Source: a virus. From it: DNA of 30,277 bases. A program made the translations under genes and the position numbers. The DNA lies in the IMG/VR virus record IMGVR_UViG_3300025687_000205, positions 1 to 30,277 of that record; one strand, written 5' to 3'. Under the pieces are notes generated by a model, which searched no databases, was not told the DNA's origin, and saw only the letters and a list, made by a program, of their open reading frames with translations. Within the stretch, counting starts at the first letter, position 1, and each line of letters begins with the position of its first letter. Of the stretch, positions 8,468 through 30,277 are shown piece after piece.

Positions 8468-10357
8468 TTAGGCTACTTTAAGAGAGCTTAAAAGCTGTGC
8501 AAGATATTGATTAGCTGTCACCCCTTGAACAGGAGTCCACCTATTCCCTAACTCCCCTACTGAGGCTTTTCCACTTGCTCCACTTATAGAAGCCCCTATA
8601 CTAACACTCTCAAAATTAGGCATTGGATCATCTTTAGAAGAAGCCATAGCAGAGCCAGCCTTCCCTAAACCAGAGAATAACTTACTCCAATTAATCTTAG
8701 AGCCACCTCCAGACTTTGCACCCGAAGATCCAGACTTTGCACCCGAAGATGCTGAAGAAGTTGACATAGCCTTCTGCTCTCCCTCCCTCCATCCTTCTAT
8801 TGGAATATCACTTCCCATCTCATAATTCTCTCTAACAGCTTGTAGATGTGAACCATACTGCTCAGTATCTAAAGGTTCAATCTGTCCAATATCCCCATCT
8901 ATATTCTGTTCAGCAAGCATCTCTCCTTGTGGAGTTAATGGGTTAATACCTGCATCTAGCATTTCAGTGTTAGTGTCATAATAAGAGGAACCATCTAAAT
9001 TACTTCCACTCCAATCATCTACAACTTCTACAGTGTCGAAACTATCCCCACCACTCCAGTCGTCTGCTGTGTAATAGTCTCCACCATAGTCTGGAATATC
9101 AAGGTCTGCTGTCATCTTACTCTGCTGTGGAGCCTCCATTGTCTTAGCTCTCTTACTAGCAAGAAGTTCATCTAGGTTTTGTTCTTCTGGCGTTAACACT
9201 CTTGTTCCATCAGTAAGGTTGGAGGAAGGCTTAGGCATTGTAGCTCTTAGCTGTACGATCTTAGTTTGAACATCCGCCTTCACCACGGCTTGCTTACTAT
9301 CAAACACCACCCCCTGCCCAGAGCCCAATCGTTCACCAAGGGTTACAGCCAGCTTTGTTCTATTCTCTGAAGGAGCAGCTTCTACAGCATTAATGGCTTC
9401 TGCTAAATCCTCTGGGTTATGTCCTAGAGAATTAGTAAGTCTATATGAAGCTTCGATTGGAGAAGTTGTAGAGGTTACAGATTCTTCTATAGCTGTGATT
9501 CCAATCTCTGCTAATGTAGCTGTATCTAATGTTCTCCAAGGGTCATCATCATTATCTACATACCCTCCCGTAGAGAAGTATTGAACATCATTATCATTGG
9601 AAGCTACTAACAAACTATCTCCCTGTTGTCTTACATTATATTGCGTAGTGTTTCCATCAGTTCCAACAGTGTCAGCCATAGAATTAACAGCAATATCTAC
9701 AGGCTGTGTAGTGTCATTATTTGTAAACCATCCCCTAACTGTAGTAGCCATTTCTTTCATTCCATTCCAAACAGCATCCCCAGCTTGGTTGACGACAGGA
9801 CGTACGCCCCCAGTGATAGCTCCTCGCACAGCACCCTCTGAGCCTCCCATAATCCCCCCTGTAACAGCTCCTCTAGCAGCTCCTGCCACCACTTCACTTC
9901 CTCCTATGGTTGGGTATTCTGCGCCCATATAACCACCCGCAGCTCCTGCTACAGCGCCTCTAACAGAGCCTGTCTGTATGCCCCCCTTAACGGCACCAGA
10001 CGCCGTAGCAGTGGTAGCCTTACTCCATCCTGCAGCTTGGCCATAAGCGCCTACACCAGCTCCTACAGCGCCTGATACAGCGCCTCTAGCAAACCCTTTC
10101 CCAAACTTCCCTCCATTAGCATAAGAAGTTATACCTCCTATTGTTCCTTGTACAACGGCACTCCCTACGACTGTAGCTGCTGTTCCAGTAAATCCTATAG
10201 CACTCCCAATGCCAGCAGCGAATCCCTGCATCCCCGGAATAAACATCATAGCTATTGCTATAGCAGGAGCAGCCTTCTTTATCACCTTACCCACTCTCTT
10301 AACTACTTTCTTTAGTCCTTTTCCAATCTTCTTAACACCCTTATACACCTTACTCAT
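8468..10357 (-). CDS. Glycine-zipper protein with basic amphipathic N-terminus, putative ejection pore component
   Basis: The first 28 residues contain 12 Lys/Arg spaced with Val/Ile/Leu/Gly (for example KKIGKGLKKVVKRVGKVIKK), like an amphipathic membrane-binding helix. A hydrophobic stretch AAPAIAIAMMFIPG follows. Residues about 45 to 190 are Gly/Ala-rich with many GxxxG/A spacings (for example GAVSGAVGAGVGAYG). The C-terminal two thirds is acidic, Ser/Asp/Gly-rich and low-complexity, with a duplicated SSGAKSG. This architecture suits an ejected virion protein that inserts in the host membrane, analogous to T7 gp14 in role; homology is not shown. The ATG overlaps the acetyltransferase stop as ATGA, with AGGAGAACAGTT upstream. 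The total length is 629 aa. The function is inference from composition and context. Confidence 0.55.
   Translation of the reverse strand: MSKVYKGVKKIGKGLKKVVKRVGKVIKKAAPAIAIAMMFIPGMQGFAAGIGSAIGFTGTAATVVGSAVVQGTIGGITSYANGGKFGKGFARGAVSGAVGAGVGAYGQAAGWSKATTATASGAVKGGIQTGSVRGAVAGAAGGYMGAEYPTIGGSEVVAGAARGAVTGGIMGGSEGAVRGAITGGVRPVVNQAGDAVWNGMKEMATTVRGWFTNNDTTQPVDIAVNSMADTVGTDGNTTQYNVRQQGDSLLVASNDNDVQYFSTGGYVDNDDDPWRTLDTATLAEIGITAIEESVTSTTSPIEASYRLTNSLGHNPEDLAEAINAVEAAPSENRTKLAVTLGERLGSGQGVVFDSKQAVVKADVQTKIVQLRATMPKPSSNLTDGTRVLTPEEQNLDELLASKRAKTMEAPQQSKMTADLDIPDYGGDYYTADDWSGGDSFDTVEVVDDWSGSNLDGSSYYDTNTEMLDAGINPLTPQGEMLAEQNIDGDIGQIEPLDTEQYGSHLQAVRENYEMGSDIPIEGWREGEQKAMSTSSASSGAKSGSSGAKSGGGSKINWSKLFSGLGKAGSAMASSKDDPMPNFESVSIGASISGASGKASVGELGNRWTPVQGVTANQYLAQLLSSLKVA
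8709..8750 (-). repeat. Perfect 21-bp tandem repeat, two copies
   Basis: Bases 8709..8729 and 8730..8750 are identical. The unit encodes seven residues (SSGAKSG type) in the low-complexity C-terminal region of the 629-aa protein, so the copy number can vary without breaking the frame. Confidence 0.9.
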
Positions 10358-10833
10358 AACTGTTCTCCTAAAGGCATAGAAGCAGTTGAGCCTACAATGG
10401 TAAAGCCTAGCTTCTCATATAGCTGAGTTGTTCTACCAGAGCCTATTCCTGATATAGTGGAGATGTGAGCATGTTTAGCTCCTTTATGTTCTCCCCATGC
10501 AATCATATTCTTTATCATCTTTGGCCCAACCATACCGCCCCTATACTTAGGAGCTACGTAAGTTAAAATATTCTCCAAAACCTGACATGAAGAATTAAAG
10601 AAAGCCCCTGTCACAATAGCAGCTATCATTCCCCTAGCCTCTCCAGTTGGGGCTACATTCAATTCTAAATACCCACTATAGTCTGCAAAGAAACTTTCTA
10701 CAAACTCTTCACTACTCTCCTTATAAAAAGGAATATGTTTGTAGAGAGGAGTTTCTTCCCAGTAAGTATTTAACAACTCCCCTCCCTTCTTCACAATTTC
10801 TTCTTTTGTTAAGGGTTGGTTAATGATAATCAT
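10354..10833 (-). CDS. GNAT-family N-acetyltransferase in the virion module
   Basis: This 159-aa protein carries a GNAT fold signature. Beta-strand-rich residues at about 55-95 are followed by V-A-P-K-Y-R-G-G-M-V-G-P (R98-G103, the acetyl-CoA pyrophosphate-binding motif A) with an adjoining helix. LYEKLGF at 138-144 is the usual motif B near the C-terminus. The substrate is unknown. It lies between two virion genes. Its start forms TAATG with the preceding stop and has no clear ribosome binding site, so it is probably translated by reinitiation after the 1422-aa gene. Its stop overlaps the next start as ATGA. Tight coupling suggests co-production with virion proteins. T7-like genomes carry small internal-virion genes at a comparable place; whether this protein enters the particle is not known. 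Confidence 0.85.
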   Translation of the reverse strand: MIIINQPLTKEEIVKKGGELLNTYWEETPLYKHIPFYKESSEEFVESFFADYSGYLELNVAPTGEARGMIAAIVTGAFFNSSCQVLENILTYVAPKYRGGMVGPKMIKNMIAWGEHKGAKHAHISTISGIGSGRTTQLYEKLGFTIVGSTASMPLGEQL

Positions 10834-25653: not shown

Positions 25654-27902
25654 TGCATAGCCCCTTGTGGAGGCATAGCCATTCCTTGTGCATTACCACT
25701 AAAACCAGCTTCTTGAGGCATAGGAGCCTGCCCTACTCCCATTTGTCCTGCCCCTGCCCCTGTTGGGTCTTGTGGATTGGCACCGGGAGGTGGTTGCATA
25801 GCTGGTTGTTCTGGCATCATGCCTGTAAGCATAGCCATAACCTGCTGCATATCAGGATCATTGATTAATTCATCAGGATCAATGTCCATACTGTACGCAA
25901 CTTCCTTAATTAGGGTGGGCATCTTGATGAAGGGAATAAGAGCTGGGTTTTGTGCCACCTGCATGAGGGTCATAAGCCTCTGACTCCTCACTTCCTTCTG
26001 CATTAGGCTATGAACACCATTCGCCTTAACCTCCAAGTCTCCTCTAATCCCCAATTCCCCCTCATAAAATGCCATATTCCACTGAAAGAAGGCTTCTCCT
26101 AGGGGTTTTAGTAGAAAATCATCCAGATTTGTAACTACAGTTTTAATATTCTGGGTAGCTGCCCCCATTAACATAGACATTCCACTAGCTGTACGGGTCA
26201 TTCCACTAACCCCAGTTTGTCCATGACTGTATGAAGGCATTCCTGTAGCCTCATCAGCCAATTGTCTAAACTTATCGAACATTTGCATGTGTTCTGTAGC
26301 TGTAGAAGGGAACTTAATACCATAAATACTCTGTCCGGGTACTCCAGATACACGCTTAAACACCTTTCCGGGGTAGATTTCCATGCTTTCTCCGGGGGCT
26401 AAGGCGTTCTCATCTACATCAAATACTAGATTTCCTGCTAGAGCTAGGTTGTCTATAGCCATCCTAGCATGTCCATTCATAATCATTTGACTATCTTCCA
26501 TATTTTCAGCAATACCAATGCCGAAAATACTATATGGATTACGTTCATAAGGGAAAACAAGGTATGGGATACGCGCTGGAATGAATGGATTAACTACAGC
26601 CCTCAAAACTCTGTTATCACAAACCCAAACATTCACCTGTACTTCCTCCATGTCAGCAAATACCTCTGTATCAATCCCTGTTCCTTCCAAACTATCCTTA
26701 TCCATCATCCCCCAATACTCCAACACTTCCCATCTTTCATTCACGACAGTGTTATTAGCATCATCTGAGCGAATGGAAAGCTCAAAATCTTCATTAACAT
26801 AGTTGGGGCCATCAGAAATAGCCATCCCAATTTGCTCTTCATCGAAATAAGGGAGGTTGGTGAGGAGTCTCATCTCACTTTTATTCAACTTATGACGCTG
26901 AATAAACCATTCACACTCTTCTTTTGTACGTGCTTCCATATCTGGATAGGCATCCCACACACTAACCCACTCTAGTCTAGGTACTCTAACAGTTTCTGGA
27001 GCATACTCACGCTCTCCTGTTTCATTAGTAACCCACTTATGTAGAGTTTTATTGTAATTGAATGGGCCTTTCAATACCCCAGTGCCTAAAAGACATGCTT
27101 CAAATAGGGCAGAACGTAGTTCTACACTTCCATTGCTCTCTTCAATCTGATCATGAATAAGCTTTTCCATCTTTCTAGCAGCTAGTTTAGCTGGAGAGAC
27201 TGTTGGTTTCTGTGGATCAGGTGAGATTCCTGCTGTTAATGTGGCTTCTCCCCCTCCCTCTGTAGACATTTTATCAATTTCTGCCTGTAGAGATTCCATC
27301 TCTAGGCTTAAATGTGTAGCTCCGGGAGGAAGTTCTTTGCCATCTCCCTTCCATCCTAGTTTGTTATAGATGGAGAATGGAGCATTAGTAGCGGAAGAAG
27401 TGGGGCTAGTATCTTCTAGCAATACTCCTCCCTCAATATCTGCTGTTTTATTATTATCTGTATTCCCTTCTCCAGCATGTGCCCACTCTGCCACACCCTC
27501 GGGGAGCTTTGTAGCCTGCACTGTTAGAGGAAAACTACTTCCTCCAAAAACAATCTCCACTAATTGTCCATATCCAGCCAAAACTTTATTCTTCGTAGCC
27601 TTAATAAAAACCCTACTCTTCTCACTCTCCCTAAACCTAACATTCTTCCCGTACACTCCTCTGTAATTCTGAAAAGCTCTGAGCCATCTCTCCTCATGAA
27701 TCTCCCTATCTTGTTTAGCCTTCTGAAACTTCTCCATAATCTTTGCTGCTACAGCAGAATAGAAGGGATTTCCTTCTTGATTAGGATCAGAGAATTCATT
27801 TTCAAGGGCAGTGTAGAGAGAGTCTGCTGTAGGAGGAGACAACATATCATCCTCATACTTAGGCTCTGCTCCTAATAAACTACTAATATCCGAATTGGGC
27901 AT
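25650..27902 (-). CDS. Portal protein, P22-like (750 aa)
   Basis: This is the dodecameric channel through which the terminase pumps DNA. The length and motifs match P22-type portals. RVFIKATKNKVLAGYGQLVE lies near residues 97-116, followed by PLTVQATKLPEGVAEWAHAG, the wing and stem regions with RIPYLVFPYERNPYSIFGIG, and then MIMNGHARMAIDNLAL and MPSYSHGQTGVSGMTRTAS (helical/crown region). The C-terminal 60 residues are Pro/Met/Gln/Gly-rich and probably flexible. The longest frame starts with GTG at 27903..27905, immediately followed by ATG at 27900..27902. I choose the ATG, with GGAG eight bases upstream. The start overlaps the last codons of the terminase gene by about 20 bases, so the two genes are coupled. 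Confidence 0.9.
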   Translation of the reverse strand: MPNSDISSLLGAEPKYEDDMLSPPTADSLYTALENEFSDPNQEGNPFYSAVAAKIMEKFQKAKQDREIHEERWLRAFQNYRGVYGKNVRFRESEKSRVFIKATKNKVLAGYGQLVEIVFGGSSFPLTVQATKLPEGVAEWAHAGEGNTDNNKTADIEGGVLLEDTSPTSSATNAPFSIYNKLGWKGDGKELPPGATHLSLEMESLQAEIDKMSTEGGGEATLTAGISPDPQKPTVSPAKLAARKMEKLIHDQIEESNGSVELRSALFEACLLGTGVLKGPFNYNKTLHKWVTNETGEREYAPETVRVPRLEWVSVWDAYPDMEARTKEECEWFIQRHKLNKSEMRLLTNLPYFDEEQIGMAISDGPNYVNEDFELSIRSDDANNTVVNERWEVLEYWGMMDKDSLEGTGIDTEVFADMEEVQVNVWVCDNRVLRAVVNPFIPARIPYLVFPYERNPYSIFGIGIAENMEDSQMIMNGHARMAIDNLALAGNLVFDVDENALAPGESMEIYPGKVFKRVSGVPGQSIYGIKFPSTATEHMQMFDKFRQLADEATGMPSYSHGQTGVSGMTRTASGMSMLMGAATQNIKTVVTNLDDFLLKPLGEAFFQWNMAFYEGELGIRGDLEVKANGVHSLMQKEVRSQRLMTLMQVAQNPALIPFIKMPTLIKEVAYSMDIDPDELINDPDMQQVMAMLTGMMPEQPAMQPPPGANPQDPTGAGAGQMGVGQAPMPQEAGFSGNAQGMAMPPQGAMQ

Positions 27903-30277
27903 CACTAGGACTCCAAGTGTGAGTATGAATATGGAATTGTTTATGGGCTGCTGTTGCAGCAGAAGGACGAGACATAACTAAATATCTTAAAGCATCATAT
28001 GCATGATCCTCTGCTTTAGTATCTACATCTTCACTATTAGTTTCTGATAATGGCAGAGTGTATAGTTCTCTAATAAGATTCTTGCACGTAGAAAATATTT
28101 GAAGCTTTGGTCTCCCAAGCTCTCCATCAGGCATAATCCTTCTTTTTAGCCTCTGATGAATAGCAACCTTCCCTGCAATTCTATTCTTATCAGCAGGACG
28201 CAGCTTTAGCATGTAAGGTTCTCTATTCAATGTCTCTCCAATTGTTGGGCCTGTATATCCTGTTCTATTCCATGCTGCTGTATCCAAAACCCCAGGAATA
28301 CTCCTACGTTCCTCTGCTTCTAATTCTACAATACGTTGTCCTAAATCTTCCCCTGTAAGTCCTTTCTGATAAAGCTCTTTGTATATAATCAATGTGTCAT
28401 CTGAAGGATCGAGTGCCCCCCATACAACAGCAGAAGGAGAGGCATATCCATAATCAACTCCTTTCACCCTAACCCATGATGGAGGGATAGTGAATGGGTC
28501 TATTACATGATGGTAGTTTGAGAATTCTGGGAATGCTGCCCCTTCATTAATATTCCAATCTCCTTCTAACAATCTCCTTCTCTGTACTTCTGGAAGAGAG
28601 CGTAGCATTCTTTCATAATTTCCATCCTTAGCTAAGTAAGGGTTATCATGTAATGTAGCTGGAATAAACTTACGTGTAAGTCCATCTGCTCCTACAAAGG
28701 TAGTATTAGGAGAAGCTGGATCAATATATCTACTCTTAACCCACATATGCCCCACGCCCCCAGGGTTTGTAGTAGCACGTAGATAACATTCAATCTCAGG
28801 GTCTGTTGTTCTTAAACGTGAGGCTAAGTAGTTCCAAGGAAACTCTGTGGCCAAGTGGGTAAGCTCATCAAAAGCAATGAGGGAATACGCCTGTCCCTGA
28901 TATCTGTATACATCAGCATCCCTCTCCAAATATCCAAACTCTATTGTAGCTCCTGAAGGGAATATCCATCTCTTCTCCACTTCCTTGTATTTACATCCGG
29001 GAACAGCTTGTGGGTAAAGCTCCCTTGTCTTATCTATAATTTCCCTAAGCTCTGGCATTGTCTTTCTTAGAATTAATGCTCTATGTGCAGCCCTATGAAT
29101 ATAACGAAGAGGGTCAATGATTAACGCGTAGCTATTATGTGTAACGATATAATCAGTAGTACAATATAGCCCCTCTACCCCACTGACAGTAATACACCTA
29201 CCTGTAGCAGTAGTAGATAGTTGTTCTACTCCCACTACTCTTTTACTTATCTCTTGTGTTGGTCTATTAGTTTTCTTTCTAGGAAGATTAAATAATTCTG
29301 AATCATTCCTACTTTTAATGTATAATTCATACACTATATGACACACAACTATCTCACCTTCCTTATCTCGATACTTACCCTCCTTAGTAGAAATACTAAC
29401 TACACAACCTAAACTACGTAATACCTCTGCCATATCATAAGCAAGAGTTTTACTTATAGAAGTGTAATAACATCCATTCTTATCTGGTGCTGAGTACCCA
29501 TCTGTATCCATTAACCCCCTAACCAACTCCCATCTCTCTTTAAGAGGAGCATACTTATACACCCTAGGGATAAACTTATTACTGCTTCTAGTACCAAATA
29601 GTTTATGTAGGACAAGCTTCTCTTCAATCCATTTTCTAGTGTGTCCTCTAAAACGAATCATCTGTCCCTTATACACTACATCATCTCCATATGGGAGATA
29701 TTTTGATAGGTGCTCTTGGTCATCTTCGTGCGAAGCAATTGTTATAGATTTAGATGTAATACACCCATCTCCTAATAATACTCCCATTAGATAAGCAGGG
29801 ATTTTATCTTTCTCTTTCGTTGTTGTGTTGAACACAATAGGTTGTGTTACTGGAATTTGTGGGCTCTCACCTTTATCCAGCCAGTCACGTAATGTTCTAG
29901 TTTCTACTACTTCTCTGCTATTATAGCCAGTGATTCTCTCTCCATCCTTCTTAACACTCTTCCTTGCTCTCCATGCTTGCCACAAATGATCCTCATGAAC
30001 ATCTACAAATGTTCCATCAGAGAAACTAACACGAGTGGGATTATATGAAATCCAAGGGTGTAATTGTATAATCTTCTGTACACCCCCTGACGGATTAGAG
30101 ATTAAATCCCCAACTTTAACATCCTCTATTTTCTTCCATCCAAAGGGAGTGGAGATAGAATCCCCACGCTTAACCACTTTTCCTCCTCCTGCTTGTCCGC
30201 CATAGAGAACATCTGTTTCAGGAGCAGCTAGAAAATCTGTCTGTGGGCCTGCATTTGGTTGGAATACAACCTTCTCC
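27883..30277 (-). CDS. terL: Terminase large subunit interrupted by an intein, 5' end beyond the window
   Basis: This is the packaging ATPase/nuclease. The frame runs open to the right edge: 33 codons (ending VLYGGQAGGGK) precede the intein, so a start at 30177 would be wrong. After splicing, Walker A reads GGQAGGGK-S. The C-extein (29133 leftward, 416 aa) contains the Walker B LIAFDELTH (near 28859-28881), the coupling motif ATTNPGG (near 28756-28776) and nuclease-domain acidic residues in VKGVDYGYASP, GVLDTAAWN and DHAYDALRYL (RNase H-like, Terminase_6C type). The spliced protein visible here has 449 residues, and the missing N-terminus is probably short, judged from usual TerL sizes. The final codons overlap the portal gene. 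Until the intein is removed, the Lys and Ser of the P-loop are 348 residues apart, so ATPase activity should depend on splicing. Confidence 0.93.
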   Translation of the reverse strand, partial: EKVVFQPNAGPQTDFLAAPETDVLYGGQAGGGKVVKRGDSISTPFGWKKIEDVKVGDLISNPSGGVQKIIQLHPWISYNPTRVSFSDGTFVDVHEDHLWQAWRARKSVKKDGERITGYNSREVVETRTLRDWLDKGESPQIPVTQPIVFNTTTKEKDKIPAYLMGVLLGDGCITSKSITIASHEDDQEHLSKYLPYGDDVVYKGQMIRFRGHTRKWIEEKLVLHKLFGTRSSNKFIPRVYKYAPLKERWELVRGLMDTDGYSAPDKNGCYYTSISKTLAYDMAEVLRSLGCVVSISTKEGKYRDKEGEIVVCHIVYELYIKSRNDSELFNLPRKKTNRPTQEISKRVVGVEQLSTTATGRCITVSGVEGLYCTTDYIVTHNSYALIIDPLRYIHRAAHRALILRKTMPELREIIDKTRELYPQAVPGCKYKEVEKRWIFPSGATIEFGYLERDADVYRYQGQAYSLIAFDELTHLATEFPWNYLASRLRTTDPEIECYLRATTNPGGVGHMWVKSRYIDPASPNTTFVGADGLTRKFIPATLHDNPYLAKDGNYERMLRSLPEVQRRRLLEGDWNINEGAAFPEFSNYHHVIDPFTIPPSWVRVKGVDYGYASPSAVVWGALDPSDDTLIIYKELYQKGLTGEDLGQRIVELEAEERRSIPGVLDTAAWNRTGYTGPTIGETLNREPYMLKLRPADKNRIAGKVAIHQRLKRRIMPDGELGRPKLQIFSTCKNLIRELYTLPLSETNSEDVDTKAEDHAYDALRYLVMSRPSAATAAHKQFHIHTHTWSPSDAQFGY
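29134..30177 (-). mobile_element. Class 3 intein with LAGLIDADG endonuclease in the terminase P-loop (348 aa)
   Basis: The insert starts with Val (VVKRGDSISTPFGWKKIEDV, block A region) and ends IVTHN, followed by Ser+1 of the extein. Block B reads VDVHEDHLW: H64 at the B10 position and W66 at B12. Block F holds C328 in GRCITVSG, and T346 precedes the terminal His-Asn. The W-C-T triplet with a non-nucleophilic residue 1 is the published definition of class 3 inteins, in which the block F Cys makes the first branched ester. Endonuclease motifs are YLMGVLLGDG (129-138) and LVRGLMDTDG (218-227), both with the catalytic-type acidic residue, so the endonuclease looks intact. The insertion site is the Walker A K/S junction, a highly conserved homing target. 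Confidence 0.9.
30177..30193 (-). promoter_or_regulatory. Ribosome-binding-site-like P-loop codons before the intein GTG
   Basis: On the minus strand the Walker A codons read GCAGGAGGAGGAAAA and are followed at once by GTG, the first codon of the intein. This is a near-ideal Shine-Dalgarno sequence four to five bases from a legal start codon. It may be a coincidence of glycine/lysine codons, but it could allow separate initiation of the intein plus C-extein. The annotated terminase start must not be placed here, because the frame continues upstream with conserved P-loop residues. Confidence 0.45.

Follow-up and report, generated by a model that had tools for sequence, protein, structure and literature searches.

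We analysed a window of 30,277 nucleotides, i.e. positions 1–30,277 of the IMG/VR record IMGVR_UViG_3300025687_000205, which derives from a marine virus of bacteria. Near the end of this window, the minus strand carries a single open frame of 797 codons in which a terminase large subunit (TerL) is interrupted by an in-frame insert of 348 residues. The flanking gene matches PHROG 979 (E=4.6e-48) and Pfam Terminase_6N (E=1.3e-7), and the part downstream of the insert, the C-extein, also matches PHROG 2 (terminase large subunit). The nearest isolate sequence is the terL of Pelagibacter phage HTVC115P (64% identical), followed by those of Roseobacter, Pelagibacter and Puniceispirillum phages of the HMO-2011 type, with HMO-2011 itself at 45%. 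The genes for the portal, the major head protein and the tail follow TerL, and the same window encodes an endolysin. Judged from homology and from this structural gene neighbourhood, the host gene is the terminase large subunit of an HMO-2011-type phage. A GNAT-type acetyltransferase gene (PHROG 1249) is found amid the virion structural genes, at positions 10354–10833 on the minus strand.

An insert-free version of this same virus is represented by the 14,016-bp contig IMGVR_UViG_3300025647_000654 (L088), whose TerL locus (L005) is hereafter called the empty allele. The interrupted gene comprises the following features:

30178–30276, minus strand: N-extein of TerL, 33 visible residues ending in GGQAGGGK, the window ending 100 nt upstream of the intein; the complete N-extein is visible in L005
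29134–30177, minus strand: putative class 3 intein with an embedded LAGLIDADG homing endonuclease, 348 aa, delineated from the translation, invariant residues, the empty-site allele L005/L088 and the AlphaFold2 model with its PDB matches
29953–30177, minus strand: N-terminal splicing half, residues 1–75, with block A from V1 and block B with H64 (B10) and W66 (B12), from the 6BS8 alignment and invariance
29266–29805, minus strand: predicted homing endonuclease domain, residues 125–304, with the motifs YLMGVLLGDG (Asp137) and LVRGLMDTDG (Asp226); Pfam LAGLIDADG_3 (E=2.3e-9) and PI-SceI match
29134–29265, minus strand: C-terminal splicing half, residues 305–348, with block F including C328 (F4) and block G with T346-H347-N348, aligned to C118/T137/H138/N139 of 6BS8
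27886–29133, minus strand: C-extein of TerL, 416 aa starting with SYALIID, i.e. the remainder of the ATPase domain and the nuclease domain (PHROG 979/2, Terminase_6N, HTVC115P terL 64%)
29124–29133, minus strand: candidate gene-conversion tract on the C-extein side, AGCTACGCGT in the window and AGTTTTGCCC in the empty allele, from a base-by-base comparison with L005/L088
30178, minus strand: sixth difference, the base just upstream of the intein, AAA in the window and AAG in the empty allele

The layout of the insert reads GGQAGGGK / VVKRGDSISTPFGW...HEDHLWQ...GRCITVSG...DYIVTHN / SYALIID, slashes marking the junctions, with V1, H64, W66, C328, T346, H347 and N348 as key residues and Ser at +1; the Walker A motif of TerL is thus split between its Lys and its Ser (GGQAGGGK/S). 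The coordinates, reading frame and residue numbers given in an earlier note, made from the sequence alone, proved exact on re-translation, and its placement of the insert precisely between K and S was borne out by both the translation and the empty-site allele. Among 80 related TerL loci fetched from IMG/VR, 77 display an uninterrupted GGxAGGGK-S, two (L006 and L007, on the contigs of L003 and L002, respectively) carry an insert at exactly the same point, and the last one, L005, is the same virus with the insertion point empty. The insert is confirmed as real, exactly bounded and not due to chance. A separate 764-aa ORF starting from the GTG codon of the intein was also considered and rejected, because the boundary is set by the empty allele and the frame, instead of beginning at this codon, extends upstream through the conserved N-extein.

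Both alleles are metagenome assemblies. On the upstream side, the window contig breaks off (position 30277) exactly 99 nt before the base at which the two alleles first differ. This end looks like a k-mer-length break of the assembly graph where the alleles part, a feature that could also betray a chimera in which intein reads from another phage were joined into the window contig. Such an artefact appears very improbable, considering that the insert is in frame with an exact K/S boundary, that the independent contigs L002 and L003 show the same site and orientation, that the third-position composition is gene-like (GC3 of 0.276 for the intein versus 0.286 for the gene), and that a break of this kind is precisely what two coexisting real alleles would cause. 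A k-mer-length break at the point of allele divergence would mean that both alleles were present in the sample from which the window was assembled.

Class definitions were drawn from PMC3196547, PMC6195587 and PMC7664689. Class 3 inteins are defined by the lack of a nucleophile at residue 1 and by the WCT triplet, namely Trp at B12, Cys at F4 and Thr at G5 (PMC3196547, PMC5050341). In the window intein, residue 1 (A1), whose position is fixed by the empty-site allele, is Val and not the Cys, Ser or Thr nucleophile that class 1 requires for the N-S/O acyl shift, while the block B His, the terminal His-Asn and Ser+1 are all present (H64, H347, N348). A phmmer alignment to PDB 6BS8 pairs H64/W66/C328/T346 with H65/W67/C118/T137; in Msm DnaBi1, the class 3 intein of Mycobacterium smegmatis DnaB, W67/C118/T137 have been published as the WCT triplet, and H65 likewise as an active-site residue (PMC6195587). 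H64, W66, C328, T346, H347 and N348 are invariant in a 38-member alignment of relatives in which residue 1 varies, and the Lys at -1 is invariant in a companion alignment including that position. The family profile scores 6RIZ, a gp41-1 intein engineered with C1A, F65W and D107C (76 bits), above 6QAZ, the wild-type class 1 gp41-1 (62 bits).

A Cys at F4 also occurs in some class 1 inteins, so that a block F Cys alone is not diagnostic of class 3 (PMC3196547). One could thus propose that C328 is incidental and that splicing starts from residue 1, as in class 1, or by direct attack of Ser+1 on the N-terminal junction, as in class 2. Class 1 is excluded because Val1 cannot make the acyl shift, and class 2 has been reported only from KlbA inteins (PMC3196547). 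Both assignments, which we hold to be extremely unlikely, are further countered by the invariance of C328, W66 and T346 in the 38 relatives and by the wider family, where the triplet stays constant while residue 1 is freely exchanged, Ser/Cys taking the place of Ala/Val/Ile/Leu/Gly and vice versa.

An AlphaFold2 model of K-intein-S, built on 38 alignment rows, reached a mean pLDDT of 94.3 and a pTM of 0.92. The window intein is predicted by this model to have the HINT fold. The nearest solved structure to the whole model is PI-SceI (Z 27.6, 333 residues, 3.3 Å), and, for the splicing domain, class 3 DnaB inteins come closest, first 6BS8 (6BS8_C: Z 18.8, 1.5 Å, 123 residues) and then 6RIY/6RIX (Z 18.6/18.3). 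The runners-up, Prp8 inteins (Z 17.9) and gp41-1 (Z 17.5), follow by a narrow margin, so the class is decided by the residues and not by the fold alone. Class 3 inteins have been described as a monophyletic clade apart from class 1 (PMC3196547); our tree covered 89 members, all relatives of the window intein, and the probable membership of this intein in that clade hence rests on the published statement and on structure.

We assign a probability of about 93% to the reading that a class 3 intein of full length, equipped with a LAGLIDADG homing endonuclease, interrupts the large terminase of a marine phage of the HMO-2011 type at the P-loop K/S. The earlier note had claimed the full class 3 triplet W66/C328/T346 with Val1, and this is upheld by the 6BS8 alignment, by the invariance in 38 relatives and by the class 3 identity of the nearest splicing-domain structures; the profile alignment that it had suggested for locating W66 and C328 at B12 and F4 was run and placed them on W67 and C118 of 6BS8. 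Its mention of a whole endonuclease also agrees with our data, both LAGLIDADG motifs being intact. Its description of class 3 as a minority class holds for inteins in general but not for this phage family, where the H-x-W motif, the block F Cys and THN are found in 75 out of 75 relatives sampled from IMG/VR.

Both catalytic Asp residues of the LAGLIDADG motifs (D137 and D226) are invariant across the 38-member alignment, as is D224, and the best match of the endonuclease profile is PI-SceI. Compared with L002, dN and dS amount to 0.28 and 1.5 for the endonuclease and to 0.21 and 2.05 for the TerL extein, synonymous sites being near saturation; the extein and each of the two intein domains show a dN much lower than dS. 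These values indicate purifying selection on endonuclease and extein alike, as expected of an endonuclease still in use. They also bear on the idea of a decayed, splicing-defective passenger intein, which would leave the window TerL dead or complemented by a co-infecting phage. A decayed class 3 intein, Arth_1007, has been published (PMC3196547), the relative L107 has internal stops, and the almost identical intein-free virus could provide complementation; against this, the frame is open over 797 codons, all the catalytic residues are present and dN remains far lower than dS throughout, so that we give this idea hardly any credence.

By analogy with the class 3 literature (PMC7664689, PMC6195587, PMC3196547), C328, assisted by its catalytic partners H64 and T346, would attack the peptide bond between Lys and Val1. 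The N-extein would then be transferred to Ser+1, N348 would cyclise with the help of H347, and a final acyl shift would yield the native K-S bond and restore the Walker A motif. The Lys and Ser of this motif are the residues binding nucleotide and magnesium. Since the intein separates them, unspliced TerL should fail to bind ATP properly and to hydrolyse it, and the phage would consequently need splicing. The endonuclease, for its part, would cut empty P-loop alleles of co-infecting phages, the repair of which would copy the intein in.

Relatives of the window intein were found by tblastn in 778 phage records, and a scan of genome contigs yielded 80 relatives in bacterial genomes and MAGs, at 26–37% identity. 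Among the 75 sampled IMG/VR relatives, 73 have Lys at -1, nearly all of these sitting in P-loops, the +1 residue is Ser in 24 and Thr in 51, and residue 1 is non-nucleophilic in 65. The ten others combine a full WCT triplet with Cys1 (L126, L141, L152, L160, L168) or Ser1 (L135, L144, L146, L171, L172); L172 (Ser1) and L174 (Ala1) are 96% identical, and residue 1 switches between nucleophile and non-nucleophile about eight times on the tree of relatives. These Cys1 and Ser1 members offer a natural mutagenesis series for transitions between class 1 and class 3. In L107, the splicing residues are otherwise kept and the in-frame stops reflect a decayed copy or a sequencing error. P-loop TerL inteins with class 3 residues were also found in the sampled phage records of CL131, ThioMD04, HokkenD, StellaBean, CMP1 and ViaConlectus. 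The TerL intein of Vibrio phage JA-1 (L189) has the block F Cys and THN but Asn for Trp at B12 (EDHINI), and is a WCT-incomplete member of the family. Several phage records (e.g. NC_028972, NC_048668 and OP947166) label intein-bearing TerL and helicase genes as ‘DarB-like antirestriction’, which is probably a recurrent misannotation through intein similarity.

The similarity of the inteins and that of their host terminases do not run in parallel. After L002, the inteins nearest to that of the window are L104 (51% identical) and L004 (48%), whose terminases are, respectively, 33% identical to the window TerL and hardly alignable with it; L108 and L127 have terminases 45–47% identical to the window TerL and inteins only 33–39% identical. 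The intein and TerL trees conflict, with AU p values of 0.003 for the intein tree held to the TerL grouping and 0.002 for the TerL tree held to the intein grouping, values to be read with care in view of several long branches.

Over the 12,013 bases shared outside the intein, the window and L088 differ by seven substitutions, in addition to the 1044-bp intein itself. Six of them are clustered within 11 nt of the insertion site, at -1, +3, +5, +6, +9 and +10, and the seventh lies more than 10 kb away; the site reads AAG/AGTTTTGCCC in the empty allele and AAA/intein/AGCTACGCGT in the full one. Were seven substitutions scattered randomly, the chance of finding six in any 11-nt stretch would be < 1e-13. 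Four of the five codons touched by the tract are changed synonymously, the fifth replacing Phe by Tyr, and selection on splicing is thus no explanation for the cluster. From this comparison, the clustered substitutions are read, together with the intein, as the footprint of one recent gene-conversion event, with a minimal tract of 11 nt, which would be an underestimate if the donor sequence did not differ beyond these bases. An intein-free allele of the same gene and a precise insertion, which characterize a mobile intein, are both found in this pair (L005/L088). Exact-pattern scans of IMG/VR for more empty or full variants of the site returned nothing beyond contig 3300025647_000654.

As to the direction of the event in this pair, gain by homing is somewhat likelier than loss, because homing drives empty alleles to full ones. 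The reverse course, in which the intein was inherited vertically from a common ancestor with L002/L003 and recently lost from L005 by recombination with an intein-free phage, has in our estimate a little less than an even chance. The nearest TerL relative, L002, carries an intein at the same site, and its amino-acid identity to the window is 71.6% for the intein and 77.8% for the C-extein; this about equal divergence makes vertical descent followed by loss in L005 possible, and fits it about as well as a recent gain. At three of the four informative tract positions, moreover, the window agrees with L002 and not with L005. Conversely, an active homing endonuclease pushes empty to full and loss would need conversion against this drive, the whole intein tree conflicts with the TerL tree, and the tract evidence is equally compatible with a donor from the same clade. 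Within the favoured reading of gain, a more specific scenario is that the window and 3300025647_000654 capture homing under way within a single natural population of marine phages, with a divergent phage as donor and about a dozen flanking bases copied in repair; we put this forward tentatively, as a possibility well short of even odds. If true, the conserved P-loop codons alone would be homology enough for class 3 inteins to jump between the terminases of different phages.

The interest of the locus lies mainly in the natural allele pair, as two viruses that are nearly the same over 12 kb, except that just one of them has the intein, form a before/after pair. This pair provides target site and flanks in their native form along with the conversion footprint, and would allow homing, the length of the tract and the cost of carrying an intein in a packaging ATPase to be measured with natural instead of built alleles. 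Our search of the literature on natural intein-free/intein-bearing pairs in viromes retrieved no usable report. For inteins in HMO-2011-type phages, no literature report was found either, and the word ‘intein’ is absent from PMC9038755.

As an element, the insert is ordinary and extends a large phage family by another P-loop class 3 intein. The emphasis initially put on its novelty was too strong, since both class 3 inteins located in TerL and those located at the P-loop K/S are kinds already published. Msm DnaBi1 is a class 3 intein at the P-loop with Ser at +1 (PMC6195587). With Msm DnaBi1 and Mch DnaB1 (6BS8, 6RIX; PMC6195587, PMC7664689), the window intein shares the P-loop K/S site, a non-nucleophilic residue 1, the WCT triplet, the THN end and the splicing fold (1.5 Å over 123 residues). 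However, these are bacterial DnaB mini-inteins without endonuclease, whereas the window intein has a whole one, and the Asp of their block B DxxH motif is replaced by His in the window intein (HEDH). The closest counterparts come from IMG/VR and occupy the same site: L002/L003, with an intein 71% identical and a host TerL 77% identical to those of the window, and L004/L104, with inteins 48–51% identical. The TerL inteins of Aphanizomenon phage CL131 and Thiohalocapsa phage LS06-2018-MD04 likewise combine P-loop K/S, WCT, LAGLIDADG and THN/S, but are only about 30% identical to the window intein and belong to other phage groups. In CL131 (L090, MG209611), this P-loop class 3 intein lies in the annotated terminase; the passages on inteins found in the paper describing the genome deal only with one in a dCTP deaminase.

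Inteins of mycobacteriophages are found most often in TerL. Of its sites a–g (Kelley 2016, PMC5050341), two (a and b) are P-loop sites, and class 3 members are named at TerL1-c, -d and -e (PMC5050341). The window intein resembles the mycobacteriophage TerL inteins in residing in the ATPase domain of a phage terminase, but is only about 23–26% identical to them. Mycobacteriophage TerL of the Terminase_6 type has been reported only with an insertion in the C-motif (site f) (PMC5050341), whereas the Terminase_6-type TerL of the window is hit in the P-loop, which makes this site a small extension of what is known. Finally, PI-SceI, the yeast VMA intein, is the best match of the window intein both for whole-length structure and for the endonuclease profile, but differs by its class 1 splicing, an identity of about 18% and a larger endonuclease part.
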